Part shown: piece by piece, positions 7,668 through 56,676 of the stretch
Numbering within the stretch: position 1 is the stretch's first letter
Layout of the letters: each line of letters begins with the position of its first letter
From: Cupriavidus respiraculi
Lineage (GTDB): Bacteria > Pseudomonadota > Gammaproteobacteria > Burkholderiales > Burkholderiaceae
Direction of reading: 5' to 3'
DNA length: 64,000 bases
Assembly (NCBI RefSeq): GCF_914271545.1
Contig: NZ_CAJZAH010000001.1
Coordinates: forward strand, 1,550,001-1,614,000
Made by a program: the position numbers and the translations under genes
The notes under the pieces: generated by a model
Database searches by the model: none
What the model saw: the letters and a program-made list of their open reading frames with translations, nothing else
What the model was told of the DNA's origin: nothing

Positions 7668-7683
7668 CGCAGAATTGGGTACG
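7668..7683 (-). repeat. Isolated RepA-type iteron, perfect copy
   Basis: Reads CGTACCCAATTCTGCG on the minus strand, matching the origin iteron consensus at every position. It lies in the gap between the second Wzc-like gene and the hydrolase gene, about 18 kb from the origin. Confidence 0.85.
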
Positions 7684-7774
7684 CTTGCCCATTGCGGGCG
7701 AGGAAACGGCACGGCGAACGAGGCGGTGCGATGCGCCGGACCTGCCGGCACATTGCACCGCTGTCGTTCGCCGC

Positions 7775-10153
7775 TTACGACGAGAGCTTGCTGTGCGCCG
7801 CGCCGATCGGGCGCTCCAGCGCGCGTACCGCGGGCGAGGCCGCCGGCAGCGGCATGCCCAGGTACGGGTTGATGGTGCGGAAGTCCGCGCGGTTGCTGCG
7901 CCGCTGCGCCACGCCGTTGATGATGCCGCCCGCCAGGCGCGCGTTGGCCCGCGTCAGGCGCTTGAGCGTCTCGTCCACCTGCCCGGGCACGGTCACGTCG
8001 GCGCGCATCACCAGCAGCGTGGAGCCGGCCTGGCTCGCGACCAGCATGGCGTCGGCCACGGACAGCACCGGCGGCGTATCGACGATCACCAGGTCGAAGC
8101 GCTGCTTGCAGGCGCGCAGCGTATCGCCCAGCGTCGGCAGCATCAGCAGCTCGGACGGATTGGCCGGCGTGCGGCCGGCGGTCAGGATCGAGAGTCCGGC
8201 GACCACCGTGTGCTGGACCGCCGCGGGCAACGGCACGCGGCCGGACAGCACGTCGGCCAGGCCCGGCTCGGCCGGCTGGTCGAAGCAGCCGGCCACGCGG
8301 CCGCGCCGCATGTCCGCATCGATCAGCAGCACGCGCTGGCCCGCTTCGGCGAACAGCACGGCAAGGTTGACCGCGGTAAACGTCTTGCCGGAGTCCGGCG
8401 CCGGGCTCGTGATGGCCACCACGCCATCCGGCGCGGCGCGCAGGTCGAAGTGCAGCGCGGCGCGAACGCTGCGCAGGCCCTCCACCGCCAGCGCATGCGG
8501 CGAGCGCCGGGCCAGCAGATAGCGATCGTGCAGACCCGCGGTAACGCGCGCATCGCCCTGCGCCAGCTCGCTCTCGTTGGCCTCGGCCAGCGCGGTGCCC
8601 GGCTGCGGCGCGGCAAGGCGCCGGCCCTGCTGCGGCACGAACGCGCTCATTGCACCGAAGCGCCGGTTCAGTTCGGCTTCGCGCTCCAGTTCGGCCTGTT
8701 CGTCGCTGTGCGCGATATCGCCGAGAATGGACAGCCCCAACCGCGCTTCGGCATCGCTCGCATCGGCCACCGACGGCTTGAGCCGGCGCCGCAGCATCAC
8801 ACAGCCGATCGCCAGCGCCAGTCCCACGAGTCCACCACCGACCGTGGCGGGCCACGGGCCGACGCCGACCGGCTTGGCAAACGCCGCGGCCGCATCGACC
8901 ACTCGCGTCTGCGTGGAGCGGTCCGAATGCACCAGCGACAGCTGTTCGATGCGGTTGCGCAGCGACATGTACATGTCTTCGGCCACCTTGACATCGCGCG
9001 TGATCGCCACCGACTCGCGCTCGGACAGCGACAGGTTGTGCATGCGCGCGTCCAGGTCCTGCCGCTCGCGCGTGAGCTGCTGAATCTGGCTGTCCACCGT
9101 CTTGACCTCGTTGGCGTCGGTGGTGAAGCGCTGCAGCAGCTTGGTACGCTCCAGCCGCAGGGCGGCGATCTGGCGCTGGTAGTCCATGCTGCCCTGCAGA
9201 TACGATTGCGCGTCCTGCGTCGGATGCATCGAGCCGGAGCGCGAGCGGTAGCGGGTCAGCGCCGCCTCCGCGCGTTCCAGTTCGGCTTTGACGCGCGGCA
9301 GCTCCGCGGTCAGGAACGCCAGCGAGCCGGCCGCATCGTCGCGGCGCTGCGAAGTCTGCCCGCGGATATAGGCATCCGCGATGCCGTTGACCAGATCCGC
9401 CGCGACCTTGCGGTCGCCGTTGCGCCACGCCAGCCGCACCGTGCCGGCGCCGCCCGCGACGGCATCCACCTTCAGCTCGCCGGTGATGGTGTCGATGGTG
9501 GCCACCGGATCGTGGCGCGTGACGACAAAGTGCGTGCCCGGCAAGGCATCGATGCGCGACACCAGCATCTCCACGCCGGCGCCCGCCGCGGGCTCGCCGA
9601 CCTGGCCGTCGAGCAGCGTCTCGCTGCCCGCCACCAGCCGATACGCGCCGCCGCGCATGACCTGCAGCGTCATCGGTACCTCGAGCAGCCGCTCCGGTAC
9701 GGCCAGCCGGTCCACGGCGATGCGCTCGCCGCCCCACGCATAGCCCAGGTCGTGGGGCCACGCCCCGCGCGCCTGTCCCGGTTCCGCGAGGCGCGCGGCC
9801 AGCGTGCCGACCAGCGGCGCGCGCAGCGGCTCGGCGCTGATGCCCAGGCGCAGGCGCTCGATGACGGGACCGGCCACCGCACGGCTGCGCAGGATGCCGG
9901 CATCGAACGGGACGGACTGCCCCGTGGTGGCGACGTCGCGCAGCGCGCCGTCATTGCCGGCGACCTGGATCAGCGCCGCCGCCTCGTACTGTGGCGCGCG
10001 CGAGAGCGCGAGTACGCCGCCGATCGCCGCCCCCGCGGCGGTCGCGACCATCAGCCAGCCCACACGGTCGAGCAGCGCGCGGCCGTAACCGGCCCGCCGC
10101 TCGGACACCGCCCCCGGAACCGGCATCGCGCCGGCAAAAGACATCCTGTCCAC
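7775..10153 (-). CDS. Second Wzc-like polysaccharide co-polymerase / tyrosine-kinase-type ATPase
   Basis: A 792-residue protein with the same plan as the 2641-4884 kinase: Wzz domain, first membrane helix (GWLMVATAAGAAIGGVLAL), coiled coil, second helix (VGGGLVGLALAIGCVML) and a cytoplasmic P-loop domain. That domain has Walker A SPAPDSGKT near residue 580, Walker A' LLIDADMRRG and Walker B VIVDTPPVLS. GTG at 10153 is chosen for the AGGAG 6 bases upstream; an ATG three codons later is the alternative. The C-terminus (about 60 residues) contains only one Tyr (NPYLG) in place of the tyrosine cluster. It may therefore depend on the other kinase or act without tail phosphorylation. It heads a minus-strand unit with the tandem hydrolase gene. 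Confidence 0.88.
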   Translation of the reverse strand: MDRMSFAGAMPVPGAVSERRAGYGRALLDRVGWLMVATAAGAAIGGVLALSRAPQYEAAALIQVAGNDGALRDVATTGQSVPFDAGILRSRAVAGPVIERLRLGISAEPLRAPLVGTLAARLAEPGQARGAWPHDLGYAWGGERIAVDRLAVPERLLEVPMTLQVMRGGAYRLVAGSETLLDGQVGEPAAGAGVEMLVSRIDALPGTHFVVTRHDPVATIDTITGELKVDAVAGGAGTVRLAWRNGDRKVAADLVNGIADAYIRGQTSQRRDDAAGSLAFLTAELPRVKAELERAEAALTRYRSRSGSMHPTQDAQSYLQGSMDYQRQIAALRLERTKLLQRFTTDANEVKTVDSQIQQLTRERQDLDARMHNLSLSERESVAITRDVKVAEDMYMSLRNRIEQLSLVHSDRSTQTRVVDAAAAFAKPVGVGPWPATVGGGLVGLALAIGCVMLRRRLKPSVADASDAEARLGLSILGDIAHSDEQAELEREAELNRRFGAMSAFVPQQGRRLAAPQPGTALAEANESELAQGDARVTAGLHDRYLLARRSPHALAVEGLRSVRAALHFDLRAAPDGVVAITSPAPDSGKTFTAVNLAVLFAEAGQRVLLIDADMRRGRVAGCFDQPAEPGLADVLSGRVPLPAAVQHTVVAGLSILTAGRTPANPSELLMLPTLGDTLRACKQRFDLVIVDTPPVLSVADAMLVASQAGSTLLVMRADVTVPGQVDETLKRLTRANARLAGGIINGVAQRRSNRADFRTINPYLGMPLPAASPAVRALERPIGAAHSKLSS

Positions 10154-10299
10154 GGCAATCTCCTGCTACACATCGGCGCGCGGCGCGCGCCGGCAAAACG
10201 GCTGACTGAAGGCTTCGATTGTGGGTACGCGCGCCAGTGGCGTCGGTTCGCACCCGCACCTATCCTTTCGCACCCTCCCTGTCGACGCAGGGCTCTCGC

Positions 10300-12722: not shown

Positions 12723-12825
12723 GATCCGGTCCCACGGCCAACCGTGCCCGCTCGGACCGGCGTGCCCTATCTGAGCAGGAGCGGCGCGGAGGCGCTCCTA
12801 CGCGGACCAGCTCCAGCGCGGCGCG

Positions 12826-12865
12826 GCGGGCATGCGCGCGCAGCGCGCGTACCGTGCATGCCCGC
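12826..12865. repeat. Inverted repeat between DUF1839 and dehydrogenase genes
   Basis: GCGGGCATGC (12826-12835) and GCATGCCCGC (12856-12865) are exact reverse complements around a GC-rich centre that can itself pair. It lies in the 173-base gap inside the minus-strand unit and could be an mRNA processing or attenuation hairpin. Confidence 0.5.
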
Positions 12866-12895
12866 GGGCTGCGGTCGGCCTTCATGCGGATCTCC

Positions 12896-14343: not shown

Positions 14344-14483
14344 CTTGGCTTTCCTCCCCTTCGGGCGTGCGTTGCGCCCGGTGAGCCGGCATGGGCCGGC
14401 GGTCGTGGTGCGATGGCCGGCGATGCGCAACGTCGTCCGGTCCCGCCCTGGTGTCATTGCCCTTGTTGCGGTGCGGCCCTCGC

Positions 14484-20535: not shown

Positions 20536-22116
20536 ATGGCTGCCTCCTTCGAGCGCGATGACGCCGTCGCGGCCGGCAAGCTGACGCGGACCGAGTTCGC
20601 CGTCGTGCGGGCCTATGCGCAGGGCATGCGCGCGGTGGACATCGCCAACCGCTATCTGCTCGATCCCGACGAGGAAGACGACCTCACGGAGCATCAGGCG
20701 GTGCAGCGCATCCTGAAGCTTCGCGACCGCCTGGTGCAGTTCGCGCTGCAGAACGATCGCCCGGATATCGCGGCGATGTTCGACTCGCTGAAGGGGCGCT
20801 CCAACGTCGCGATGGATCGCCGGGTCGACGCCCTGTCGTCGCTGGAACGACTGGAGCCGGGCAAGCCGCTGCTGTCCCATGCCGTCTCGCTGTGGTTCGG
20901 CCCCAGCTTGTCACGCCGCCTCACGGGGGGCGGCATCGCGACCCTGGGCGATCTCGTGACGCTGGTCAACCGGCGCGGCGCGGCGTGGTGGCGGCGGATA
21001 CCGCGGCTCGGGGCCAAGTCTGCGGGCGTGATCGTGCAGTGGCTGGTTGGGCATCGCCACGCACTCCGCGGTCCCGGAGGCGCAGAGGCGCTGGAGCCAC
21101 ACATCGTGATGGCCGTCTCACCTGTCGGGGCCTCCGCCCCGGGCCGAACAGCGCTCGCTGCCGGCTTGCGTGCGCCGGTGCCGCTGGAGCGCATGATCGC
21201 GGGTCCCGCCGGCACGGACGGCTTGGGCCTAGGACGGGATCTGGAACTGGTGCGAGCGTGGCTCGCCAGAAAGCCGGCCGGCAGCAACACCTGGATAAGC
21301 TACCGTCGCGAATGCGAGCGCTTGCTGCTTTGGGCCGCACAGCGCGGACGATCGCTGCGGACGCTGGGACGCGACGATGTGCGCGACTACGTCGCCTTTC
21401 TGGCGGACCCGCAGCCCGCGGCATTCTGGTGCGGACCGGCCAGCCCGCGCGACCGGGCGCATTGGCGCCCCTTCGAAGGGGGCCTTGGTGCCGCTTCGCG
21501 GGCGGCCGCGCTGCGGGTGGTCCGGGCGTTGTGCAAGAGTCTGGTCAAGGACGGCATCCTCGCCGCGGACCCGTGTGCGGACATCACCGTGGACGTTCGC
21601 CCGGCAGAGACCGGATCCGAGGTGGTTGCCAGCGGGGCCGGAAGCATCGCGCATTTCCGCCGGTGGCTTGCCCGCGTCGATCACGGCCCGCGCTGGCGCG
21701 CCGCGAATGCCGTGGTTCATCTGCTTGCCGACTGCGGCATGCGGCTGGGCGAGGTCGCCCACGCTCGCCATGAGGATCTGGCGCGGCACGGTGACCGATG
21801 GACGCTGTCGGTTCGCGCGAAGTCGGCGGCACGGATGTCGTTGACCGTCGGCGAGCCGGTCCTGGCTGCCCTGCGTGCCCACTGGGCGGACCGGGCGTTG
21901 CCGGCCGATCCGGCCACGGGCCCGTTGGTCGGCCCGGTCGATATGCCCCCGACCCGGCGCGCTCAGGCCAAGATGGCCTTGTGCGCCAATTCCGGCTATT
22001 CCCTGAGCGGGCTGGACCAATTGGTCCGGGCAGCCTGGCGGGAATTCGTCGAAGATCCTGAACACAGTGGATTCAAAGATTTCCGCTTCACCCCGGGCAC
22101 GCTTGCGCGCGCCTGA
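20536..22116 (+). CDS. Tyrosine-recombinase-like protein lacking the catalytic C-terminus
   Basis: A 526-residue protein. The N-terminal 200 residues resemble the DUF3701-type domain of Burkholderiaceae integrases, including a helix-hairpin-helix-like stretch (GGGIATLGDLVTLVNRRG, IPRLGAKSAGVIVQWL). A SAM-like core-binding domain follows (about 230-340), then the start of the recombinase catalytic domain with the first Arg in C-G-M-R-L-G-E-V near residue 400 and a candidate Lys (SVRAKSAARM). The frame ends at FRFTPGTLARA without any H-x-x-R box or nucleophile Tyr, and only 72 bases remain before parB. It is either truncated or a non-catalytic member. Such proteins occur next to parAB/repA on Burkholderiaceae secondary replicons, so a role in maintenance is possible. 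Confidence 0.75.
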   Translation: MAASFERDDAVAAGKLTRTEFAVVRAYAQGMRAVDIANRYLLDPDEEDDLTEHQAVQRILKLRDRLVQFALQNDRPDIAAMFDSLKGRSNVAMDRRVDALSSLERLEPGKPLLSHAVSLWFGPSLSRRLTGGGIATLGDLVTLVNRRGAAWWRRIPRLGAKSAGVIVQWLVGHRHALRGPGGAEALEPHIVMAVSPVGASAPGRTALAAGLRAPVPLERMIAGPAGTDGLGLGRDLELVRAWLARKPAGSNTWISYRRECERLLLWAAQRGRSLRTLGRDDVRDYVAFLADPQPAAFWCGPASPRDRAHWRPFEGGLGAASRAAALRVVRALCKSLVKDGILAADPCADITVDVRPAETGSEVVASGAGSIAHFRRWLARVDHGPRWRAANAVVHLLADCGMRLGEVAHARHEDLARHGDRWTLSVRAKSAARMSLTVGEPVLAALRAHWADRALPADPATGPLVGPVDMPPTRRAQAKMALCANSGYSLSGLDQLVRAAWREFVEDPEHSGFKDFRFTPGTLARA

Positions 22117-22188: not shown

Positions 22189-23202
22189 TCAGATCAGCGT
22201 CTTGTCCAGTCCAAAGCGCGCCTTCAGCGCCTCGACCAGCGCCTCGCGTGCGTCGCGCTCGCCAAGCTGCACGTCCAGCACCACCCGTCCGGAATCCCAT
22301 TCCTTGATGGTGCCAAGCAGCTCGCCGTCGCTTGTCCGGATCTTGTACTGCCGGCTGATCTCCTTGACCTTGCGCGACTTGCCTTCCTGCGCCTGCTTGC
22401 GGATCGCCTCGACCTCGCGGCTGGACAGACCATCGTTCATGACACGTAGCGCGAGCTCCCGCGTACGATCTTCGCCGGCCAGCTTGTAGTACAGCGTCAA
22501 CTCGTAGCCCGTCGCGATGCCGATGGCGCTCGGGCGCTCGCGCATGGCGTTGAGCACCGACTCCGGCAGCTTGAGCAGGGCCAGCGTCTTGTTGACCGTG
22601 CCGGCCGACATTCCGGTCAGCTCGCAGATTTCCTCTTCCTTCTGTACCTTGCCCTCATCCAGCAGCTGACGCCAGGCGATGGCATTGTCCAACGCCGACT
22701 GGTCGGAGCGCTGCTCGTTCAGCAGGAAGGACAGCCGGTAAAAATCGAGATCGCTCAGGTCGCTCTCGATAAAGCATTCCATCTCGGTCTTGCCGGCGGA
22801 CGCCAGCGCCCGCTTTCGGTAGTGACCGTCGATGAGAATGTAGTGCCCCGGACGCGAGGGATCTGGCGCCGCCAGACCTGGCGTTTTCTGGCCGTGCGTG
22901 GCGATGGAGGCGGCGCGCTCCTGCACCGTAGCCGGGTCATAGATCCGCCGCGCATTGAGCGGATTGTCGTGCAGTTGGGCCAGCGGGATCTTCTTCAGGA
23001 CCCGGCCCTCTGCGGCCGCCTCGCCGCTTTCAGCGCTGAAAGACTCCGGTGCCTCTGCGCCCTTGGCCTTCAACAGGCCGTTCGGATGCTGGGCGATCGC
23101 CGCCTCGGCGCGGGCAAAGCGGTCCAGGGTCGCGTTCCGGGTCTTTTCGGCGGCCATGCCGGCAAGCATGCCAGCCCGGAGGTTATTTAGCTTCGTGGCC
23201 AT
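22189..23202 (-). CDS. parB: ParB chromosome-partition protein
   Basis: A 337-residue ParB. An N-terminal tail is followed by the ParB/Srx CTPase domain (IPLAQLHDNPLNARRIYD, then HYILIDGHYRKRAL, a G-H-Y-R-K version of the GERR box). The central helix-turn-helix includes KEEEICELTGMSAGTVNKTLALLKLPE, and a C-terminal dimerisation region completes it. It binds parS and loads onto DNA to direct segregation of this replicon. It starts 5 bases after the parA stop, in the usual parA-parB order. A perfect copy of the putative parS palindrome lies inside its own N-terminal coding region (23027-23042). Confidence 0.93.
   Translation of the reverse strand: MATKLNNLRAGMLAGMAAEKTRNATLDRFARAEAAIAQHPNGLLKAKGAEAPESFSAESGEAAAEGRVLKKIPLAQLHDNPLNARRIYDPATVQERAASIATHGQKTPGLAAPDPSRPGHYILIDGHYRKRALASAGKTEMECFIESDLSDLDFYRLSFLLNEQRSDQSALDNAIAWRQLLDEGKVQKEEEICELTGMSAGTVNKTLALLKLPESVLNAMRERPSAIGIATGYELTLYYKLAGEDRTRELALRVMNDGLSSREVEAIRKQAQEGKSRKVKEISRQYKIRTSDGELLGTIKEWDSGRVVLDVQLGERDAREALVEALKARFGLDKTLI
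23027..23042. promoter_or_regulatory. parS: Putative parS site inside parB
   Basis: The perfect 16-bp palindrome CTTTCAGCGCTGAAAG, identical to the copy upstream of parA. Its length and GCGC centre resemble the replicon-specific parS sites described for Burkholderia secondary chromosomes. Confidence 0.7.
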
Positions 23203-23207: not shown

Positions 23208-23864
23208 TTACTCGATTAGAGACAGGACTTCATCGACCATGATGTCGACTTCCTGCACGGCCTCGCGCGCGCCAGGCACCCCGTGCACGGTGCACCCGAT
23301 GGCCTGGCACTCTCGAAAGGCCGACCGGGAGCCGACCATCGAAGACATCAACGGGAAGTCGCCATCGTCGCCCAGGATCTCGATCGCCTGTCGAGCGATG
23401 GAGACACGGCGCTGGACCATATTGGCCATCACGCGAACTTTCAGCGTTTCGTTCTGCACCTGGGCATGGTGGGCCAGCGTCTTGGCGGCGACAGCCGCCC
23501 ATAGATCGGGAGGCGACGGGACCACCGGAATGATGGCCAGATCGGAAATGAGCAGGGCGCTGGAGGGCGCAGCCGAGTGGACCGCTGGAGGGCAATCCAC
23601 CACGATGTAATCGTAGTCCTGGACGAATTTACGGACTTCGCGGTGCATCGCCCCGCCAGAGGGCGCGAGACCGATGACCGACGCCGGGAAGGGCCGCTCG
23701 TCGCTCGCCTGGGCCGCCCATCTCGTGGCCGTTCCCTGTTCGTCCATGTCGACGAGCATGGCGCGCGCCCCACGCAGCCCCAACGTGCCGGCCAAGTGCA
23801 TGCTGACCGTGGTCTTGCCACAGCCACCCTTTTGGTTGAAGACCGTAATGATTCGTGCAGGCAC
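23208..23864 (-). CDS. parA: ParA partition ATPase
   Basis: A 218-residue ParA without an N-terminal helix-turn-helix (the short, type Ib-like form). The deviant Walker A is KGGCGKTT at residues 13-20, with the signature Lys present. Walker A' is AMLVDMDEQGTAT, and Walker B is YIVVDCPP. GTG at 23864 begins right at MPARIITVFNQKGG. It forms dynamic gradients on the nucleoid that move ParB-parS complexes. A perfect palindrome identical to that in parB ends 12 bases upstream of the start, where bound ParB could repress the operon. Confidence 0.93.
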   Translation of the reverse strand: MPARIITVFNQKGGCGKTTVSMHLAGTLGLRGARAMLVDMDEQGTATRWAAQASDERPFPASVIGLAPSGGAMHREVRKFVQDYDYIVVDCPPAVHSAAPSSALLISDLAIIPVVPSPPDLWAAVAAKTLAHHAQVQNETLKVRVMANMVQRRVSIARQAIEILGDDGDFPLMSSMVGSRSAFRECQAIGCTVHGVPGAREAVQEVDIMVDEVLSLIE

Positions 23865-23875: not shown

Positions 23876-23891
23876 CTTTCAGCGCTGAAAG
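23876..23891. promoter_or_regulatory. parS: Putative parS / ParB operator upstream of parA
   Basis: CTTTCAGCGCTGAAAG, a perfect palindrome located 12 bases before the parA start. Position and identity with the copy in parB support a centromere site that may also autoregulate parAB. Confidence 0.75.
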
Positions 23892-24547: not shown

Positions 24548-25645
24548 TCAGGCTAGCTTGCGCACGCTGGTACGCGAAGGCTGCAGGATCAGGGCCTTAG
24601 ACGAATCCGCATCGACCTTGGCATCCGGATACACGACCAGCACATCTTTCAGGGCCTTTCGGAACAACGCGCGGAACTTGCGCTCGCTTTCCGTTTCCGT
24701 ACCGAACTGCATCTGCAAGGCCTCCCAGGGGATCTCCGTGCGCCGCTGGATGGTGAAGAACCGGTAGGTCAGCCAGGAATAGACGTCCAGCGCGAACGGC
24801 GACTGCTTGAGCGCCTTCAACGCCCGCATATCCACGGGCACGGGCCGGTTCACCAGCTCGTTGAAGAACGGCTCGGACAGCACCACGAAGCTCTCGAACA
24901 TCGAGCCCTGGCCGGGTTGCATTGGGTCCCACCACGTAGACAGCTGATCGGCGAGCAGGTAACCCACGCGGTCGATCGACAGCGGCTCGTTATGGTTTGG
25001 ATTCGGATTCTGGCTTGGCGTGGACTTGTTCTGCACGATGGCAATCGTCGCCGAAAACAGGCGGATCATCTGCTGGCGCACCAGCGTCATGGTCCCGCGC
25101 TTGCCTCCGGTCGCCATCGGAATGCCGAGGTTGTACATGAACTCGGACAGCGAGTTGCCCAGCGAGATGCGCCGGTCCTCCACCGTTCCGGTGAACTCGC
25201 CCCGCTTTTTCTTCGCCATGATCTCCTTGCCGATCCAGGCGAGCATCAGCCGCGGATAGGAACCGTACGGATACCCCAGCGAGACTGTCTCGGACACCAG
25301 TTTCTGGCGCCCATTGCTGGCACGCTCCGAGCGTTGCTGCGTGAAGTAGCCTGGCTGGATCATCAGCGAAATATTGCCGCTGGTGCGTGTCCACACCGGC
25401 GGCGCGCCCTTCGGAGCGCGATACGGCAGCGTTACCTGGACGCTGGCACGGCTCAGGAAGCCGACTTCGCCACTTTGCCACGCGTCCTCGCGCTCCATGG
25501 CCTGGGCTTCGTCGAACAGACGCTGGAATTTCTCGGACGGTACCAGCGGCACGTCGTTGCCAGGAACGATGATGCGCGAGGGCTCGCTGTCGATGCTGAT
25601 GACATTGCGGCTTCCCTGCGTGGCCGGGGTGCGTTTGATAGGCAT
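24548..25645 (-). CDS. repA: RepA-type replication initiator
   Basis: A 365-residue plasmid-type initiator of the RepA_C kind. Characteristic stretches are RLMLAWIGKEIMAKKK, GNSLSEFMYNLGI, TMTLVRQQMIRLFSATIAI, SPFALDVYSWLTYRFF and EIPWEALQMQFGTETESERKFRALFRKALKDV. The last group forms a winged-helix module likely to bind the iterons. It should bind the repeats at 25.9-27.1 kb and open the origin together with DnaA. ATG at 25645 is chosen because the frame upstream (to GTG 25807) looks unlike the family, but the RBS at 25645 is weak. Divergent orientation away from the iterons and a near-palindromic site upstream suggest autoregulation. Confidence 0.88.
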   Translation of the reverse strand: MPIKRTPATQGSRNVISIDSEPSRIIVPGNDVPLVPSEKFQRLFDEAQAMEREDAWQSGEVGFLSRASVQVTLPYRAPKGAPPVWTRTSGNISLMIQPGYFTQQRSERASNGRQKLVSETVSLGYPYGSYPRLMLAWIGKEIMAKKKRGEFTGTVEDRRISLGNSLSEFMYNLGIPMATGGKRGTMTLVRQQMIRLFSATIAIVQNKSTPSQNPNPNHNEPLSIDRVGYLLADQLSTWWDPMQPGQGSMFESFVVLSEPFFNELVNRPVPVDMRALKALKQSPFALDVYSWLTYRFFTIQRRTEIPWEALQMQFGTETESERKFRALFRKALKDVLVVYPDAKVDADSSKALILQPSRTSVRKLA

Positions 25646-25825
25646 ATGGGCTAGCTTCGAATTACCCGACTTTGTACTTGATGCCACCAGCCTTGTCACG
25701 CAGAAACAGGTACGTTCGCTTTTTCCGCCCTGGGTTGGTCGTGGTCTGTCTCTCGATTGCTGGTCGCATGCAGGGCGAGGGTGGGCAACCCGTTCAGGGT
25801 TGTCCACGTTCGCGCTGTCATCAGC

Positions 25826-25868
25826 TACAAGTAATACGTACCTTTACGGTTAACTACTTGTAAACCGT
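25826..25868. promoter_or_regulatory. Nested inverted repeats upstream of repA, candidate operator
   Basis: TACAAGTA (25826-25833) pairs with TACTTGTA (25855-25862). Inside and beside it GGTT (25849-25852) pairs with AACC (25863-25866). The stretch is AT-rich and lies between repA and the first iteron, where a repA promoter and a RepA-dimer operator are expected. Confidence 0.45.
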
Positions 25869-25916
25869 ATACGGCGCCGCCAAGCCCTTGAACCGAAAGG
25901 GTAAACAGCGCCTTCG

Positions 25917-26021
25917 CGAACCCGAATCTGCGGCGGACCGTACTCGATTCTGCGCGACGCTGAACCCAATTCTGCGCAACCTCGAACCCGTTTCAGCGCG
26001 GGGGGCGAACCGGATTCTGCG
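25917..26021 (+). repeat. Phased array of five degenerate iterons (core origin)
   Basis: Five 16-base repeats start at 25917, 25939, 25961, 25983 and 26006, so the spacing is 22, 22, 22 and 23 bases, two helical turns. They share ACCC...TCTGCG-type ends but differ from the strong consensus, usually with A in place of T at position 3. Such regular phasing is typical of the functional initiator array of iteron origins. The DnaA box follows 26 bases later. Confidence 0.85.
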
Positions 26022-26046
26022 GGGACAACTCTGCCCTTCCACAGCC

Positions 26047-26055
26047 TTATCCACA
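26047..26055 (+). promoter_or_regulatory. DnaA box
   Basis: TTATCCACA is a perfect match to the high-affinity DnaA box TTATNCACA. It lies between the phased iterons and the strong iterons. Confidence 0.85.
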
Positions 26056-26072
26056 GTGCCGGGCAATGAAGC

Positions 26073-27064
26073 CGTACCCGTTTCTGCGCGCACGCTCGGC
26101 TAATTCTCCGAAAGCGGATCCGGCGCCATCCTTCTGGACGCCCATCACGCGCAGATTTGGGTACGGACGCCATAGGGGAGCGAAGCACCCGGGCATTGCG
26201 TACCCGTTTCTGCGCCGATTCCGCGTCGCTAGCGTACCCGATTCTGCGATGGCGTCGGTGCCCCGTGCGGACGCGGCGTGACCGTACCCATTTCTGCGCG
26301 TACCCGATTCTGCGAGTCGGCTACCACCCCTCCGGGGAACAGGGGTGCGTACCCGATTCTGCGTGCGGGCTCGATGCCCGCGCCGAGCGAAGCGTACCTA
26401 CTTCTGCGGGCTGCAGTGCGAAGGTGATGCCCGCTCGTGCAACACTGAACAGCGTTTACAAACACTGCAGCGATGGCGAGCGCTCGCATACCTGGTTCCA
26501 GCTGCATCCTGCTGCGCCACACTCCGTACCCGTTTCTGCGCCAGCGAGAGAGCGGGTGGAAAGTCGGAATCGGAGCCCAAGGAAGGCGGGCGCCCCTACC
26601 CGTACCCAATTCTGCGTCGCTGCGAAAGGCGGCGACGCGGGACAAGCCGTACCCATTTCTGCGCAGGCGGGTCGCATATCGCCGCAGCGACGGGCTACGG
26701 AAATCAGCGTCGAGGGCACCCCTTTCCGTACCCGTTTCTGCGCCTGGTGAGATCCTTCCGGGCAGCGCCGCGGGCGTACCCGTTTCTGCGCTCAGGCGCA
26801 TCGGACATGGAAAAGTTGTGAAATCGACGGTCGGATCAGGAAGCGAACCCGCTCTGGACGAGGAAGGCAGGGTGGCGAGGGCGTGATGCGTACCCGATTC
26901 TGCGGGCATGCCAACGGGGCTGAAGCCGGTCAAAGGAGGGAAAGCGTACCCGTTTCTGCGGAGATGATTTGCCGTCGGGCCGCGCCTTCAGCGCGACCGT
27001 ACCCGTTTCTGCGCGCGCTGCGAAACGCGGATATCGCAGCCGGCAGCGCGTACCCGTTTCTGCG
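26073..27064 (+). repeat. Field of 17 strong iterons at the origin
   Basis: Consensus CGTACCC(G/A)(T/A)TTCTGCG. Copies start at 26073, 26199, 26233, 26283, 26299, 26348, 26393, 26525, 26601, 26648, 26727, 26775, 26889, 26945, 26998 and 27049 on the plus strand and at 26150 on the minus strand. Fifteen match fully; 26150 has one and 26393 two differences. Intervals are often near 50 bases (49, 50, 49, 45, 47, 48, 56, 53, 51). Two copies (26283 and 26299) abut directly. The 1-kb region codes for nothing; open frames seen in it are made by the repeats themselves. It probably acts in RepA binding and copy control. Confidence 0.92.
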
Positions 27065-29247: not shown

Positions 29248-29307
29248 CGTACCCGTTTCTGCGTCGGGCGGGACTGCGAAAGCCGGACCTGCGTACCCGT
29301 TTCTGCG
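29248..29307 (+). repeat. Two perfect iterons downstream of the permease terminator
   Basis: CGTACCCGTTTCTGCG occurs at 29248-29263 and again at 29292-29307, the two starts 44 bases apart. Both are on the same strand as the origin copies and lie 2.2 kb beyond the last one. Confidence 0.88.
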
Positions 29308-36666: not shown

Positions 36667-37085
36667 GTCGCCGCCAGCCCTTATCCCATGCGGCTTTCGC
36701 GAAAAGAGAGGAACTTTAGGAATGCGTCAGATACGGTTGCGCGACCATTCTGTTGCGGTGCTGAAACCTCTGTCGTGTTGTACCGGCTTCGCGTGGGGAG
36801 CGTGCCCGGACGGGCGGGCCATGCAAGCCAATAGCGGAAGGCGGGAATGGGCCGAGGGCCCGCGCCGCCCGCAACGTTGCAGGCATGTTACCGGCGCGAT
36901 GCAACCGTCGCCCGGTGTCGCGCAAACGACGGTGCGTGGCGCGGCCGGACGGTACAGCAGGGTGGTAGAGCGAAGCGGCAGGGACGGAGGAGCGAAGCCG
37001 GGAGCGGTCAACGGTCGTCGAGCCGCACGCAGAATCGGGTACGCTCCGGTGCACTCTCGCTGCGCTGGACGCTGTGCCGCGCGGC
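36667..37085. other. Gap upstream of the Fap-like operon
   Basis: 420 bases with no supported gene. It should hold the upstream activator sites for the sigma-54 promoter, which I could not identify as a clear inverted repeat, and it contains one perfect iteron (37028-37043). Confidence 0.45.
37028..37043 (-). repeat. Isolated RepA-type iteron, perfect copy
   Basis: CGTACCCGATTCTGCG on the minus strand, in the gap between the small lipoprotein gene and the Fap-like operon promoter. Confidence 0.85.
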
Positions 37086-37542: not shown

Positions 37543-38523
37543 ATGAGGCCCGAACATTCCACCCCGGGAGACACCGGCGCCCGCAGCCGTCTCGGGCGCC
37601 TGTTCCCGGACCGCCACACCCTGAGCCGTACCGTGCGCGTGGTGGGCGCCGCCTTCAAGTCCTGGTCCGCGCATCGTGCCGCCAGCAAGGGCGCGGCCCT
37701 GTCCTTCTACATGCTGTTTTCGCTGGCGCCGATCCTGGTGCTGGTCATCTCCATCGCGGGGCTGTTCTTCGGCGCCGACGCCGCGCGAGGCGAGATCTTC
37801 TCCCAGCTCGACGGCCTGGTTGGCTCCCAAGGTGCCGCAGCCATCGAGCAGATTCTCGCGGCCACCTACCGCGCCGGCGGCAGCGGTTTCGCCGCCATCG
37901 TGGCCACCGGCATCCTGGTGGTCGGCGCCACCACCGCGTTCGCGGAACTCAAGGCGAGCCTGGACGAGATCTGGGGCATGCCGCAGGAGCAGGCCAGCGG
38001 CTGGGCCTCGCTGCTGCGCACCCGCCTGCTGTCCTTCAGCCTGGTGCTGGTGCTGGCCCTGATGCTGCTGGTGTCGCTGGTCGTCAATGCGGCGCTGGCG
38101 GTGATCACCCGCTTCTGGGGCTCGCTATGGACCTCGTACGAGTGGCTTGCCCCCGTTGCCGATGCGGTATCGAGCGCCTTTTCGCTGGCGGTGGTGACGC
38201 TGTTGTTCGCGGTGGTCTTCAAGATGCTGCCCAATGCGCGGGTGGCGTGGCGCGACGTGGCGATGGGCGCGGTCATCACCGCGGTGCTCTTTTCTGTCGG
38301 CAAGCGGCTGATCGGCATCTACCTGGGTAACAGCGCGGTGGCATCGTCCTATGGCGCCGCGGGCTCCGTGGTGGCGCTGATGCTGTGGGTGTACTACTCG
38401 GCGCAGATCTTCTTCTTCGGGGCGGAGCTGACGCACCAGTACGCCGTGCAGTTCGGCAGCCTGCGCAATCGCCAGGCGACGGTGGCGGGCGCCGCGCGCG
38501 CCGCCGATGCCGTGAACCGGTAG
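37543..38523 (+). CDS. YihY/BrkB-family inner-membrane protein
   Basis: A 326-residue membrane protein of the YihY/virulence-factor BrkB family. Recognisable blocks are KGAALSFYMLFSLAPILVLVI near residue 48, ELKASLDEIWGMP and the C-terminal GSVVALMLWVYYSAQIFFFGAELTHQYA (quoted in part). About six transmembrane helices are predicted by eye. The function of the family is not settled. ATG at 37543 is the first Met of the frame that fits. It is followed by prfC on the same strand after 134 bases. Confidence 0.9.
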   Translation: MRPEHSTPGDTGARSRLGRLFPDRHTLSRTVRVVGAAFKSWSAHRAASKGAALSFYMLFSLAPILVLVISIAGLFFGADAARGEIFSQLDGLVGSQGAAAIEQILAATYRAGGSGFAAIVATGILVVGATTAFAELKASLDEIWGMPQEQASGWASLLRTRLLSFSLVLVLALMLLVSLVVNAALAVITRFWGSLWTSYEWLAPVADAVSSAFSLAVVTLLFAVVFKMLPNARVAWRDVAMGAVITAVLFSVGKRLIGIYLGNSAVASSYGAAGSVVALMLWVYYSAQIFFFGAELTHQYAVQFGSLRNRQATVAGAARAADAVNR

Positions 38524-41649: not shown

Positions 41650-42007
41650 GCGCCGGGCTGGCCGGGCGCGTCGCGCGGCCAGCGAGACCGGAGCGTACCC
41701 AATTCTGCGTGGCCCCGAGGCCCCCCGCGCCAGACCCGCCCGGGCGCGGCGGCCCCCGTTACCGGAATAAATTGCCCGCCCGCGGGCCCTTGCCCCGCAA
41801 CGGCTGGCGCCGATGGCGCACGGCTGCGTGCCGTCCGGCGCGGAACCCATCCCGTTGCCCCGTGGTCCTGAAGGTATCCCCATTTCAAAGCCAATGTAGG
41901 CGTCGTCCGACAAGCCGTCGGCGCCGCGCGGGCAGACGCGCGCCGGTTGTCATGCGATAACGGAAAGCCGCCAAGCCTGCCCCTGCAGGCAAAGGAGCAA
42001 CTTTTCG
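41650..42007. other. Gap before the NAGGN operon
   Basis: 358 bases with no supported gene. It contains a perfect iteron at 41694-41709 and must hold the osmotically regulated promoter of the following operon. No clear -10/-35 pair stood out. AAAGGAGC precedes the asnO start. Confidence 0.45.
41694..41709 (+). repeat. Isolated RepA-type iteron, perfect copy
   Basis: CGTACCCAATTCTGCG, 45 bases after the MFS gene stop codon and 300 bases before asnO. Confidence 0.85.
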
Positions 42008-43789
42008 ATGTGTGGTATCGCAGGAGAATTACGGTTTGACCGGACCATGGCCGATGTGCGGGCCGTGGCCGACATGACGCGCACGCAATCCGCGCGCGGC
42101 CCCGACGGCGAAGGCATCTTCGGCTTGGGCGCGCGCGTGTTCGGCCACCGCCGGCTGCGCATCATGGATCTGACCGACCGCGCCCACCAGCCCTTCGTCG
42201 ACAATGCGCTGGGCCTGGGCATCGTCTTCAACGGCGCCATCTACAACCACCACGCGCTGCGCGAGGAACTGAGCGCGCGCGGCTACGTCTTCGCCTCCAC
42301 CGGCGACACGGAAGTCATCATCAAGGCCTGGCACGCCTGGGGCCCGGCCGCGCTGGATCGGCTCACGGGCATGTTCGCGTTCGCGCTGTGGGAGCGCGAC
42401 ACCGGCGTAACGCACCTGGTACGCGACCGCCTCGGCATCAAGCCGCTGTACTACACCCAGGATGCGCGGCGGCTGCGCTTTGCCTCGACGCTGCCCGCCC
42501 TGCTGGCCGGCGGCGAGGTCGACACCGCGCTCGACCCGGTGGCTCTGCATCACTACATGAGCCTGCACGCGGTCGTGCCGGCCCCGCGCACGATCATCAA
42601 GGGCGTGCGCAAGCTGCCGCCCGCCACGCACATGACCGTGCACCCGGACGGCCGCACGGAGATGAACACCTGGTGGCGCCTGGACTTCACCCCCGACGCC
42701 AACGATGTGGCGCGCTCGTTCGAGGACTGGCGCGATCTGACCCTCGATACGCTGCGCGAAGCGGTGCGCCGCCGCACGGTGGCCGATGTGCCCGTGGGCG
42801 TGCTGCTTTCCGGCGGCGTGGACTCGAGCCTGATCACCGGGCTGCTCGCAGAATTGGGTACGCGCGACTTGCGCACCTACGCCATCGGCTTCGAGGCCGC
42901 GGGCGGCGAAGCCGGCGACGAATTCCACTATTCGGATCTGGTGGCGAACCATTTCGGCACGCAGCACGAGAAGATGATGATCCCGTCGGCGGACCTGCTG
43001 ACGGCGCTGCCCGATGCCATCGACGCGATGAGCGAGCCGATGGTGAGCCACGACTGCGTGGCGTTCTACCTGCTGTCCGCCGCGGTGGCGCGCCATAGCC
43101 GCGTGGTGCAGAGCGGGCAGGGCGCGGACGAGGTATTCGGGGGCTATCACTGGTATCCGCCGCTGGCCGAGAACCGCGACGCGGACGGCGGCGTGCAGGC
43201 CTACCGCAAGGTCTTCTTCGACCGCACCCATGCCGAAATGGCCGAGCTGCTGTCGCCGGAATGGCTCGCGGACGATCCGACCACGCGCTTTCTGGCCGAC
43301 CATTTCGCCATGCCCGGCGCGGATACCGCGATCGACCGCGCGCTGCGGCTCGATACGACCGTGATGCTGGTCGAGGACCCGGTCAAGCGCGTCGACAACA
43401 TGACCATGGCCCATGCGCTGGAGGCGCGCGTGCCGTTCCTGGACCACAACCTGGTCGAGCTGGCCGCGCGCATGCCGGCGCACCACAAGATCGCCGCGGG
43501 CGGCAAGCATGTCCTGAAGGAAGCCGCGCGCAAGGTCATCCCCGCCGCCGTGATCGACCGGCCCAAGGGCTATTTTCCCGTGCCGGCCCTGAAGTATCTG
43601 CGCGGACCGTTTCTCGAGTACGTGCGCGACATCGTCGGCAGCGACGCAGCCCGCCAGCGCGGCCTGTACCGGGCCGACGTGGTGCAGCGCATGCTGGACG
43701 CGCCGGACACGCATATCACCCCGCTCAACGGTTCCAAGGTCTGGCAGATCGCGCTGCTCGAAGCGTGGCTGCAGACCCGCGGGCTGTAA
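42008..43789 (+). CDS. asnO: N-acetylglutaminylglutamine amidotransferase
   Basis: A 593-residue asparagine-synthetase-like enzyme that amidates N-acetylglutaminylglutamine to give the osmoprotectant NAGGN. The N-terminal class II glutaminase has Cys2 (MCGIAGE) as nucleophile. The synthetase half has the PPi loop SGGVDSS near residue 271. The identification rests on the invariable neighbours of the NAGGN operon (ngg, M42 peptidase). AAAGGAGC is the RBS. A perfect origin-type iteron (42847-42862) lies inside the coding sequence, where it encodes part of LAELGTRD just after the PPi loop. Confidence 0.92.
   Translation: MCGIAGELRFDRTMADVRAVADMTRTQSARGPDGEGIFGLGARVFGHRRLRIMDLTDRAHQPFVDNALGLGIVFNGAIYNHHALREELSARGYVFASTGDTEVIIKAWHAWGPAALDRLTGMFAFALWERDTGVTHLVRDRLGIKPLYYTQDARRLRFASTLPALLAGGEVDTALDPVALHHYMSLHAVVPAPRTIIKGVRKLPPATHMTVHPDGRTEMNTWWRLDFTPDANDVARSFEDWRDLTLDTLREAVRRRTVADVPVGVLLSGGVDSSLITGLLAELGTRDLRTYAIGFEAAGGEAGDEFHYSDLVANHFGTQHEKMMIPSADLLTALPDAIDAMSEPMVSHDCVAFYLLSAAVARHSRVVQSGQGADEVFGGYHWYPPLAENRDADGGVQAYRKVFFDRTHAEMAELLSPEWLADDPTTRFLADHFAMPGADTAIDRALRLDTTVMLVEDPVKRVDNMTMAHALEARVPFLDHNLVELAARMPAHHKIAAGGKHVLKEAARKVIPAAVIDRPKGYFPVPALKYLRGPFLEYVRDIVGSDAARQRGLYRADVVQRMLDAPDTHITPLNGSKVWQIALLEAWLQTRGL
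42847..42862 (-). repeat. RepA-type iteron inside the asnO coding sequence
   Basis: CGTACCCAATTCTGCG on the minus strand, perfect match, within codons for A-E-L-G-T of AsnO. Confidence 0.85.
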
Positions 43790-47883: not shown

Positions 47884-47927
47884 GCCGCTTCGTCGATCGT
47901 CCGCTGGCCGGAATGGAGAGGAAAGAC

Positions 47928-51395: not shown

Positions 51396-51433
51396 TACGC
51401 CTTTCCTTTCCTCCACTCGAATACGGACAAGCC

Positions 51434-52114
51434 ATGCGACGCTTCGAACATCCCTCCGCAATGGACCACGCCGAAGCCCTGTCCATGTCCATCGGCCATG
51501 CGCTCGAACTGGCGATCCAGGTCAACGGCTGGGCCGTGCTGGCGGTCTCCGGCGGCCGCTCGCCGGTGCAGATGTTCGAGCGGCTGCGCTATCGCCCGGT
51601 GCGCTGGGACCGCGTCACCATCACGCTGGTCGACGAGCGTGCGGTGCCGCCGGAGCACGAGGACAGCAACGGCGGGCTGGTGCGCCGCCATCTGCTGCGC
51701 GAAGCCGCGGCGGCGGCCCAGTTCGTGCCGCTGATCGCCGATGCCGGCGAAGCGGCCGATCCCCAGCGGGCGGTGGAGCGCCTGAACGCGGCCTATCGCC
51801 AGCCCGATGTGGTGGTGCTGGGCATGGGCGAGGACGGCCATACGGCGTCGCTGTTTCCCGAGGCGCCGGAGCTCGCGGCGGCGCTGTCGGCCGAGCAGCC
51901 CGCCTATCTCGTGACGCATCCTTCCAGCGCGCCGCACGCCCGCGTCACGCTGAACCTCGCGGCGCTGCTGGCGGCCGAGCGCGCCTTTCTCGCGATCGAC
52001 GGGCCGAAGAAGACCGCCGTGTTCGAGCGCGCCTTGCAGGAGGCATCCCCGGCGCTGCCGGTGGGCGTCGTGACCACGCGCCACCGGCATGGCTTCGACG
52101 TCTACTCGCATTGA
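51434..52114 (+). CDS. pgl: 6-phosphogluconolactonase
   Basis: A 226-residue DevB/Pgl-type lactonase that hydrolyses 6-phosphogluconolactone. Family blocks are AVSGGRSPVQMFERL, ITLVDERAVPPEHEDSN and VVLGMGEDGHTASLFP, the last carrying the active-site His. ATG at 51434 begins a normal N-terminus. It sits between zwf and glk with short gaps (38 and 20 bases), so the three are one operon. Confidence 0.94.
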   Translation: MRRFEHPSAMDHAEALSMSIGHALELAIQVNGWAVLAVSGGRSPVQMFERLRYRPVRWDRVTITLVDERAVPPEHEDSNGGLVRRHLLREAAAAAQFVPLIADAGEAADPQRAVERLNAAYRQPDVVVLGMGEDGHTASLFPEAPELAAALSAEQPAYLVTHPSSAPHARVTLNLAALLAAERAFLAIDGPKKTAVFERALQEASPALPVGVVTTRHRHGFDVYSH

Positions 52115-52134
52115 TCCACACCGACCCGCGCGTT

Positions 52135-53109
52135 ATGGCTTCGTATCCCCGCTTGCTCGCCGATGTCGGCGGTACCAACGTTCGCTTCGCCGTGCAGACC
52201 GGCGCCCACGACATCGGCGAGGTCACCGCGCTGAAGGTCGCGGATTTCCCGTCCCTCGAAGCCGCCACGCGGCACTACTTCACGCTCGCCCCGGGCGCGA
52301 GGCCTCGCCATGCCGCAATCGGTCTGGCAAATCCGGTCACCGGCGACTTCGTCAAGCTGACCAATCACGCGTGGGCCTTCTCCGTCGAGCAGATGCGCGG
52401 CGCGCTGGCGCTCGACACGCTGATCGCGATCAACGACTTCACCGCGCTGGCGCTCGCCCTGCCTTACCTTGACGCGGCCGGCCTGGCGCCGCTGCGGCCC
52501 GGCAAGGCGGCGGCCGGCGCGCCGCTCGCCCTGATCGGCCCCGGCACGGGGCTCGGCGTGTCGGGGCTGATTCCCGGCCGGGGCGGCTGCGGCGCGGTGG
52601 CGCTGGCCGGCGAGGGTGGCCACGTCGAGTTGATGCCGAAGACGGACGACGAGTGGATCGCCTGGCGCGCGGCGCAGCGCGACCATGGGCGCGTCTCCGC
52701 CGAGCGCCTGCTCTCGGGCAGCGGGCTGTCGCTGATCCATGCGGCGCTGCGCGCAGAAACGGGTACGGTCTCGGCCCCGCCGCTCAAGCCGCACGAGGTC
52801 ACCGAAGGCGCGCTGCAACGTCACGATCCGCTGTGCATGCGCGCGTTCGAGGCCTTCTGCGGGCTGCTCGGCTCCGCGGCGGCGGACCTGGCGCTGGTGC
52901 TCGGCGCGCGCGGCGGGGTCTATATCGGGGGCGGCATCGTGCCGCGCTTCGTCGACGCGTTGGCGGCATCGTCCTTCGGCGCACGCTTTATCGACAAGGG
53001 CCGCATGGGCGCCTATCTCGCCGATATTCCGGTTCACGTCATCACGGCCCAGTATCCGGCGCTGGCCGGCCTCGCGCACGCGCTGGCCGAGGCCATCGGC
53101 GAGGACTGA
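52135..53109 (+). CDS. glk: Glucokinase
   Basis: A 324-residue bacterial glucokinase of the Glk (E. coli-like) family. The phosphate-1 motif is ADVGGTNVRFA near residue 9, the catalytic Asp is in INDFTALALALP, GPGTGLGVSGL forms the second phosphate loop, and GEGGHVELMP the glucose loop. It phosphorylates glucose with ATP, feeding zwf. A perfect origin-type iteron lies within the gene at 52752-52767, encoding A-E-T-G-T in a surface-type segment (RAETGTVSAPPL). The response regulator gene follows after 26 bases. Confidence 0.94.
   Translation: MASYPRLLADVGGTNVRFAVQTGAHDIGEVTALKVADFPSLEAATRHYFTLAPGARPRHAAIGLANPVTGDFVKLTNHAWAFSVEQMRGALALDTLIAINDFTALALALPYLDAAGLAPLRPGKAAAGAPLALIGPGTGLGVSGLIPGRGGCGAVALAGEGGHVELMPKTDDEWIAWRAAQRDHGRVSAERLLSGSGLSLIHAALRAETGTVSAPPLKPHEVTEGALQRHDPLCMRAFEAFCGLLGSAAADLALVLGARGGVYIGGGIVPRFVDALAASSFGARFIDKGRMGAYLADIPVHVITAQYPALAGLAHALAEAIGED
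52752..52767 (-). repeat. RepA-type iteron inside the glk coding sequence
   Basis: CGTACCCGTTTCTGCG on the minus strand, perfect match, within codons for A-E-T-G-T of glucokinase. Confidence 0.85.
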
Positions 53110-53135
53110 GCGGCCGCGCGCCGAAGGGGTAGCGG

Positions 53136-53833
<698 letters not shown>

Positions 53834-53834
<1 letters not shown>

Positions 53835-55204: not shown

Positions 55205-55244
55205 CGCCGGCCTCGGGTGCCGGAGATGCCGGCGGCGCGCAAAG

Positions 55245-55260
55245 CGTACCCAATTCTGCG
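55245..55260 (+). repeat. Isolated RepA-type iteron, perfect copy
   Basis: CGTACCCAATTCTGCG in the 93-base gap between the converging histidine-kinase and dehydrogenase genes. Confidence 0.85.
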
Positions 55261-55297
55261 TGTCGCTCGGCGTGCCCGAATTGCCTGAACCCGTGCC

Positions 55298-56233
55298 TCA
55301 GCCGATCGGCGTGAGCACCGCCTCGCCGGCGAAATGGCGCCGCGAATTCTCCAGGAACAGGCGCACCGTCGCCTCGATCGCTTCGGGGGACCAGCCGCCG
55401 ATGTGCGGGCTCAGCACGACATTGGGGCAGTCGAGCAGCTCGGCGGGCGGCGCCGGCTCGCTCTCGTAGACATCCAGCCCCGCGCCTCCGACCTCGCCAG
55501 CGCGCAGCGCCTGCGCCAGCGCGGCGGTATCGACCACGCTGCCGCGCGCGATATTGACGACAAAGCCCTGCGGGCCCAGCGCGCGCAGCACCTCGGCATT
55601 GACCAGGTGGCGCGTGGCCGCGCCGCCTGGCGTGGCCACGATCAGGAAATCGCACCAGTCGGCCAGCGCGCCGACGCTGTCGAAATAGCGATAGGGCAGA
55701 TCGGCTTTGGGACTGCGGTTGTGATAACCCACCTCCAGCTCGAAGCCCAGCGCGCGCGTGGCGATGCGCTTGCCGATGGTGCCCATGCCCAGCACGCCCA
55801 GGCGCTTGCCGGTGATGCCGGGGCGCAGCGGCAGCTCGGTGCGCCATTTGCCCTCGCGCGTGGCGCGGTCCATCTGCGGCACCGCGCGCACCGCGGCCAG
55901 CAGCAGCGCCATGGCATGGTCGGCGACGCTGCCGTCATTGGTGCCGGCGCCGTTGGCCACCACGATGCCGCGGGCGCGGGCATGGGCCACGTCGACCGTC
56001 TCGTAGCCCACGCCCAGCGTGCACAACAGTTCCAGCTTCGGCATGGCGTCGATCTCGGCCGCCGTCAGACCGATGGTGCCGATGGTCAGCACCGCGCGGA
56101 TCTGCGCGCCGTGCCGCGCGATGCTGTCGGCGCGCGCCGCGGCGTCGGGTGCGTACAGCACCTCGTAGAGTTCGCCAAAACGCGCGAGGTGTTCGTCGGT
56201 ATTGGGATTGAGGACTAGCAGCAGGGGCTTCAT
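55298..56233 (-). CDS. D-isomer-specific 2-hydroxyacid dehydrogenase
   Basis: A 311-residue NAD(P)-dependent dehydrogenase of the GyaR/GhrB type. The nucleotide-binding motif is GVLGMGTIGKRIA near residue 152. The catalytic Arg is in NIARGSVVD, Glu in YESEPAPP and His in SPHIGGWSPEA. It reduces 2-keto acids such as glyoxylate, hydroxypyruvate or 2-ketogluconate. The nearby sugar-acid pathway makes 2-ketogluconate a reasonable guess, not proven. ATG at 56233 gives the family start (MKPLLLVLNP). Confidence 0.9.
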   Translation of the reverse strand: MKPLLLVLNPNTDEHLARFGELYEVLYAPDAAARADSIARHGAQIRAVLTIGTIGLTAAEIDAMPKLELLCTLGVGYETVDVAHARARGIVVANGAGTNDGSVADHAMALLLAAVRAVPQMDRATREGKWRTELPLRPGITGKRLGVLGMGTIGKRIATRALGFELEVGYHNRSPKADLPYRYFDSVGALADWCDFLIVATPGGAATRHLVNAEVLRALGPQGFVVNIARGSVVDTAALAQALRAGEVGGAGLDVYESEPAPPAELLDCPNVVLSPHIGGWSPEAIEATVRLFLENSRRHFAGEAVLTPIG

Positions 56234-56676
56234 GGAGCGGCGTGGGATGACGGGCAGAAAGGACGAAGGAAAGCGAAGGCATGGCCGGGACACTGCGCGG
56301 TAAGCGCGAGGTTATGGACGGCCCCGTGGCCGCAGGCATTGTAGCGCCGCCGAGCGGCCAGCGTGGCCGCTCGCAGCCGCCCGCAGAAACGGGTACGCCC
56401 CGGCGGCCAGTCGGGAACGGGACCACGCAGAAACGGGTACGCAAGGCCCGCGGCGCCCGCTTCGGGAGCGTGCCGGCGGCAATGCCATGCACGCAGAAAC
56501 AGGTACGCTTTGGCGGATATGCGCGTGCTGCGGGCACGCGCCCGCACGCTCGTGCCGCTTCCGATGGGGGTGTCCCGGTCCCGCCGCGACCATTGGATGG
56601 GCGTGCACGTCGCGCGCAGAAACGGGTACGCCCCGGGGTGGCGTGCGTGCGTTCGGGTCGCGCGCCGCGTACTGGC
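56234..56676. other. Gap carrying a secondary iteron cluster
   Basis: 443 bases between two minus-strand genes with no supported gene. Four origin-type iterons occupy 56382-56630. The promoter of the dehydrogenase gene should lie in the left 150 bases. No terminator for the GGDEF gene was recognised. Confidence 0.6.
56382..56630 (-). repeat. Secondary cluster of four iterons
   Basis: Minus-strand copies of CGTACCCGTTTCTGCG at 56382-56397, 56426-56441 and 56615-56630 are perfect; 56492-56507 has one change (CCT for CCC). All four point the same way. Start-to-start distances are 44, 66 and 123 bases. The 44-base step equals that of the pair at 29248/29292 and is two 22-base steps. Confidence 0.9.

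Follow-up and report, generated by a model that had tools for sequence, protein, structure and literature searches.

Origin-type iterons scattered around a Cupriavidus chromid origin as candidate decoys for the initiator RepA

Introduction

Outside Vibrio, little is known about how replicons of plasmid type are restrained to a single initiation per cell cycle. The closest described case is chromosome II of V. cholerae. There, sites for the initiator RctB are spread over 74 kb at a distance of 40 kb from ori2, and they were shown to bind RctB and to reduce the copy number driven by ori2 (Baek and Chattoraj 2014, PMC3937223; this and the other papers cited were available in part, and statements about them refer to those parts). 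Here, we analyzed a 64,000-nt stretch of Cupriavidus respiraculi (the window; RefSeq assembly GCF_914271545.1) that holds the origin of a chromid with its array of 16-bp repeats (iterons), CGTACCC(G/A)(T/A)TTCTGCG, which are putative binding sites of the chromid initiator RepA, and we found that exact copies of this 16-mer also lie scattered on both arms around the origin.

Like the RctB sites, these distal sites are copies of origin iterons outside the origin of a secondary chromosome, near enough to it for early duplication. The RctB titration sites were found on chromosome II only, and their authors liken them to datA (PMC3937223). In contrast, each genome here has about 16 sites, which lie on both arms, become sparser with distance from the origin, occur throughout the genus and are also found inside genes; the initiator is of the RepA_C family, and this comparison covers iterons. 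In Burkholderia cenocepacia, of the same bacterial family, a second cluster of c2 iterons lies 140 kb from the origin of a chromid (PMC4948915, supplementary legend); however, the iteron sequence is another one, the initiator belongs to Rep_3, and in the part of the source available the cluster is mentioned in one legend without analysis. The datA locus and DnaA boxes of E. coli are likewise initiator sites outside the origin, with those near the origin duplicated early, but datA serves DnaA of the main chromosome, has an ATP-hydrolysis role and is no iteron system (summarized in PMC3937223).

Closer to this locus, at least 12 repeats at repA of C. metallidurans CH34 (PMC2864759) and 20 at repA of C. 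necator NH9 (PMC6379261) have been called putative RepA sites. Their motif is the same as here, and the available parts of both papers describe only the origin copies. A preliminary description of the window had held that initiator sites spread along a chromid were undescribed for this group. This stands for Cupriavidus and Ralstonia, since no account of distal RepA sites, and no motif letters, turned up in the literature searched (most subscription papers lay outside it); the kind of arrangement, however, is known from V. cholerae and B. cenocepacia. The novelty lies in a field of sites that is shared across the genus, apparently selected, graded around the origin and marked by footprints in coding sequence, and in the reappearance of such a field alongside a second initiator family.

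Exact iterons surround the chromid origin

The genome scanned comprises 5.59 Mb in 18 contigs, and the window covers positions 1550001-1614000 of the 1.71-Mb contig C1; positions below count from the first base of the window unless a contig is named. Counts were controlled with 100 shuffles of the window and with the reversed motif over genomes. When up to two mismatches are allowed, 35 iterons are found in the window, 23 at the origin (25699-27064; 15 exact) and 12 outside it. The preliminary description had listed twelve extra-origin copies, eleven of them exact, with far less than one expected by chance in 64 kb. All twelve were recovered, eleven exact and one (56492) with a single difference, and even with two mismatches allowed the shuffles gave a mean of 0.12 and a maximum of 1. 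All four combinations of the two variable bases occur at the origin, and GT, GA and AA occur outside it in the window, as had been described; AT was seen outside the origin in other genomes.

Genome-wide, there are 31 exact 16-mers (reversed motif, 0), every one on C1 between 1477858 and 1615447 (138 kb, or about -98 kb to +39 kb relative to the origin). Fifteen are at the origin and 16 outside, and five exact sites lie beyond the window. No exact copy was found on any other contig, among which those of the main chromosome carry no label in this assembly. At two mismatches or fewer, 14 sites fall on the other contigs relative to 19 reversed-motif matches genome-wide, i.e. background. Hence, the similar density elsewhere that had been named as the outcome to speak against the proposal was not found.

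The gradient was measured in five apparently complete chromids (CH34, C. campinensis MJ1, Cupriavidus sp. EM10 and those of genomes G022 and G002), with origin copies excluded. We found 80/83 distal sites within 135 kb of the origin, relative to 7.8 expected if uniform, and 58/83 within 50 kb. Per 10 kb of each arm there were 1.2-1.8 sites within 30 kb, 0.36 between 50 and 100 kb and 0.04 between 100 and 200 kb, so that density is about 45-fold lower at 100-200 kb than at 20-30 kb. Thus, as for datA and the RctB sites, origin-type sites lie on the same replicon near enough to the origin for early duplication. Their absence elsewhere is complete in our own genome (0/31 off C1) and not absolute in other genomes.

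Distal sites are conserved in place and sequence

Conservation was scored in 54 repA-anchored loci, which were fetched without regard to sites, allowing C or T at base 7. The window has a pair of GT sites, 44 bp apart, 3' of a xanthine/uracil-type permease gene (29248-29263 and 29292-29307, both + strand). This gene is present in 48/54 loci, and a site lies 3' of it in 46/46 scorable ones, Ralstonia included, with 121/121 permease-side sites in the same orientation. Similarly, a GA site (37028-37043, - strand) lies 5' of a BrkB-family gene (37543-38523) that occurs in 34 loci, and 33/34 have a site 5' of it, all in the same orientation; the miss is L070.

The GT site at 52752-52767 (- strand) is inside the glucokinase gene (52111-53109). 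Glucokinase was found at E <= 1e-60 in 38/40 genomes of the genus, and the exact 16-mer occupies the same codons in 30/30 loci returned, our own included. These codons read GCA GAA AYG GGT ACG, the third switching between Thr and Met, and the flanking amino acids vary. The four site codons that could be scored have a codon identity of 1.00, relative to an average of 0.63 across 209 conserved columns, and the site window ranks top of 193 windows. A second coding site, of AA type (42847-42862, - strand) in the N-acetylglutaminylglutamine amidotransferase gene (42047-43789, TIGR03104), is exact in 5/5 genomes that have the gene at E <= 1e-150 (40 searched). By these patterns, the distal sites appear to be kept by selection.

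Five further sites in the window are intergenic: AA sites at 7668-7683 (- strand) and 41694-41709 (+ strand), which have matching sites in other genomes, and a cluster of GT sites at 56382-56397, 56426-56441 and 56615-56630 (all - strand). A one-base variant (CGTACCTGTTTCTGCG, 56492-56507, - strand) keeps the full extended flanks AAG...TG; its change, C to T at base 7, occurs at origins too, and it is the only decayed distal copy in this genome. The last site, of AA type (55245-55260, + strand), lies between convergent genes by the gene calls.

Between genera, the places differ. In Ralstonia SET104 (G138), each of the 12 distal sites outside the permease group is within or next to a gene that has a site near it in a second Ralstonia genome (G104) too. 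For only one of these genes, parB, did the Cupriavidus loci compared yield a relative, and no site was seen within 700 bp of the Cupriavidus relatives listed. The permease position is the only one common to both genera in what was compared. Hence, loci turn over between genera, and the architecture persists while positions change.

Distal sites favor spaces between genes

Gene context was determined with a dicodon gene caller (no annotation accompanies the stretches used from the plasmid records of CH34, C. campinensis and EM10) for 185 distal sites of 12 genomes, which are not independent and may include a few origin variants in G002. We found 27/185 in coding sequence relative to 84% of random positions. 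Spaces between convergent genes held 44/185 (24%) relative to 1.5% of random positions, a ~15-fold enrichment; tandem spaces held 81/185 (44%) relative to 8.8%, and divergent spaces 27/185 (15%) relative to 5.6%. The remaining 6/185 were at locus edges.

Distal and origin copies differ in their flanks, with little information beyond ~5 bp. Distal sites fit the extended consensus AAG-16mer-TG better than origin copies (3.14 versus 2.01 of five positions, and in 11/11 genomes with both classes), although the five positions were picked after viewing the same sites.

Sites recur across Cupriavidus and Ralstonia

Exact sites are present in 40/40 Cupriavidus genomes (reversed control, 0 in all 40), at 26 to 37 per genome when G011 (54% complete, 4 sites) and G023 (5 sites) are left out. 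The total rises with genome size (Spearman 0.70, n = 38, uncorrected for kinship). Across the family, 29/150 genomes match (reversed control, 0 in 150): 14/14 Cupriavidus, 13/13 of group g24 (Ralstonia), one of g4 and one of g25, the last with a lone site. Close relatives of RepA are likewise nearly all from Cupriavidus and Ralstonia. The six Ralstonia genomes viewed have origin copies plus sites 5-25 kb away, and three far sites keep a constant order in 5/6 of them; the sixth (G160) has two of the three.

A second iteron system shows a similar scatter

The c2 iteron consensus of B. cenocepacia (PMC4948915) was searched in 60 genomes of the family. It matched in 18/60, from 7 of 25 genera (reversed control, 0 in 60), and in none of the four Cupriavidus and three Ralstonia genomes among the 60. 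In several genera, although not in every genome, its sites are scattered. They span 148 kb in G088, with one more 1.9 Mb away; G069 and G086, of one genus, have the origin and a second cluster ~150 kb off; and in G058, G081 and G096 the sites extend over tens of kb. In G083, all eight sites lie within 3.4 kb, and G049 has single far sites only.

In nine stretches of G088, G069 and G086, scored with a gene caller trained on Cupriavidus and Ralstonia, 0/37 c2 sites were coding relative to 79% of random positions, and 12/20 sites outside origin arrays lay between convergent genes relative to 3.8%. The gene beside the c2 array in G069 and G088 encodes a Rep_3 initiator (PF01051/PF21205), not RepA_C; RepA as query gave no match in G069 and, in G088, only a short partial one at another place. 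On sequence grounds, the same kind of scatter accompanies two initiator families.

Organization of the origin

The origin was identified as that of a chromid because repA (RepA_C, PF04796) lies beside parA and parB. The repA gene (24548-25645, - strand) encodes 365 aa from the start called by the gene caller; its open frame runs on to 25807, and the RepA_C match (E 5.4e-32) was scored on 24548-25807. A search of RepA against sequences of solved structures gave no meaningful match. As in iteron-type chromid origins, the gene of a plasmid-family initiator stands beside direct repeats (25917-27064).

The iterons form three parts: a single copy in the repA leader (25699-25714, - strand, the one-base variant CGTACCT...), a core of five phased iterons spaced 22/22/22/23 bp with 1-2 mismatches each (25917-26021, + strand), and an irregular array of 17, 15 exact and two with 1-2 mismatches (26073-27064, + strand). 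A perfect DnaA box (TTATCCACA, 26047-26055, + strand) adjoins the core. This layout is found in 7/7 loci compared (the window, four other Cupriavidus and two Ralstonia), with the leader iteron at a like position in all six others. Core phasing is common to the seven, with core copies mostly degenerate (0-3 mismatches) and an exact one in a single locus (L060), and the DnaA box is exact in 4/7. The leader iteron is probably an operator for autoregulation. In its three parts the layout resembles ori2-min and ori2-inc of Vibrio, as far as the available part of PMC6090056 describes them.

The parA (23208-23864) and parB (22189-23202) genes are both on the - strand. At parAB, a perfect palindrome (CTTTCAGCGCTGAAAG) has copies at 23027-23042 and 23876-23891 and is probably the parS of the chromid; its inner 14-mer is present in 50/54 repA-anchored loci. 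An integrase-like gene (20536-22116) adjoins parB, with a match to DUF3701 'Phage integrase protein' and a weak match to a phage-integrase N-terminal domain.

Possible roles of the distal sites

The reading that we favor, with a probability of roughly 0.6, is that the distal sites are early-replicated strong decoys that titrate RepA, handcuff it, or both, such that the chromid fires once per cell cycle. RepA binding, its high affinity and affinity order, the negative effect and the timing are all predictions. The low-consensus phased core would serve initiation and need high free RepA, with the operator at repA; the consensus copies of the dense array and, by sequence better still, the distal copies would compete for RepA. 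Distal copies would be selected strong sites, nearly all within ~135 kb of the origin, and would be copied soon after initiation. At usual fork speeds, near-origin sites are duplicated within minutes. The number of strong sites would thereby quickly double, drain free RepA and/or let RepA couple distal sites to the origin (handcuffing), and the core could not refill until RepA is resynthesized. Titration or handcuffing along the chromid had been suggested in the preliminary description; the suggestion fits selection, the origin-centered gradient, the convergent preference and the near-absence elsewhere, although titration and handcuffing are not separated.

Several points weigh against these decoys. 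With ~20 sites at the origin already, the effect of about 16 more may be modest, and mutation of three prominent RctB sites on Chr1 of V. cholerae had a minimal effect on Chr2 replication (PMC11711613). Three of the 83 distal sites are 214-650 kb away from the origin, a distance at which they would not be duplicated very early, and in both G022 and G002 a single exact site falls on the other large contig. Not every distal site is old, as the 55245 site is absent at 3/3 syntenic places; orthologous distal sites are not independent, and the extended positions were chosen post hoc. Finally, titration, handcuffing and a structural role are indistinguishable from these data.

That structural role, in which RepA at scattered sites would bridge and fold the origin domain (up to ~100 kb either side) with ParB for segregation and replication control would be secondary, we consider unlikely. 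Initiator handcuffing is known mainly as replication-inhibiting, which counts against it. Sites on both arms, the gradient and the kept orientation would suit such folding, and in one locus (L089) the parS-like palindrome is 58 bp from a distal iteron; however, in the other loci listed the palindrome lies 0.9-3.2 kb from origin iterons and not among the distal sites. Contacts of the Chr2 origin of C. necator with a large portion of Chr1 in Hi-C also agree with a structural role (PMC13342612).

It is far less probable that RepA is also a transcription regulator with the distal sites as its operators. A site in the repA leader and some sites 5' of genes (37028) would fit, but convergent ends (44/185 versus 1.5%) are favored far above divergent promoter regions (27/185 versus 5.6%), a context that speaks against operators; 27/185 sites are inside genes, and the genes with sites in one Ralstonia are almost all different from those in the Cupriavidus loci compared with it. 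Slightly less credible again is binding by another chromid protein in place of RepA. ParB, also DNA-binding, is encoded beside repA, but the 16-mer is asymmetric, as a ParB/parS centromere would not be, and forms a 22-bp phased array beside repA, while ParB has a candidate palindrome of its own in 50/54 loci; moreover, G069 and G088, of other genera, have a different iteron array beside a different initiator family. That the distal sites are functionless relics or recombination products of the origin array, as had also been proposed, is scarcely tenable: their 16-mer is identical to that of the origin, but the glucokinase codons frozen in 30/30 loci already contradict this, place and orientation are kept across species, distal and origin copies share little beyond ~21 bp, and this genome has a single decayed distal copy (56492).

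If the distal sites are RepA decoys, a distance-graded decoy field may, tentatively, be a general and independently evolved device that makes plasmid-derived replicons once-per-cycle chromosomes, with the gradient as a fork-driven timer that turns the first minutes of replication into initiator depletion. This idea would span RepA_C (Cupriavidus and Ralstonia), Rep_3 (Burkholderia-type c2) and, from the literature, RctB (Vibrio). That another initiator family of these bacteria comes with a similar scatter suggests that the rule extends more widely among secondary chromosomes. The site set is compact, conserved and removable, belongs to a genus for which laboratory strains exist, and is under selection that apparently suffices to keep codons of a metabolic gene fixed; it offers a direct test of initiator titration versus handcuffing.

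Lone sites on other contigs

In our own genome, a lone one-mismatch site off the chromid contig (G000:C11:6343-6358, CGTACCCTTTTCTGCG) is unremarkable relative to the control. The lone exact sites off the chromid are intergenic in G022 (C1:1486941) and coding in G002 (C2:1257680). The former (G022:C1:1486941-1486956, locus L086, on a 4.52-Mb contig) lies beside an inverted repeat (TTCTGCGT-GAG-ACGCAGAA), and no orthologue of it was found among the loci fetched. One conserved trigger site of crtS type on the main chromosome was considered and is not supported by the seven lone sites compared, which are unlike, save for weak homology between L087 and L090; the comparison looked for iteron-like sites, and a crtS need not resemble an iteron. 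Four lone sites (L088, L091, L100 and L102) have flanks that match those of chromid sites in our own genome, and they probably lie on fragments of the chromid in draft assemblies.

G023 (7.7 Mb, 97% complete) has its five exact sites at C1:18187, C6:424913, C9:1511, C11:8446 and C11:107281, and a genome search found no close RepA and no glucokinase match. Natural loss of the chromid system is not concluded for it, as the assembly may lack the origin region. Coding lone sites are L087, L095, L098, L106, L107, L212, L214, L215 and L216, five of them with the peptide QKRVR. A homologous accessory protein of ~1030 aa has an exact iteron at the same coding place (peptide TSQKRVRI) in L087, L098, L212 and L215 (G038, G025 and G023), and two of the five G023 sites fall in it. 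This iteron may be either a chance match passed down with the homologous gene or a decoy outside the chromid.

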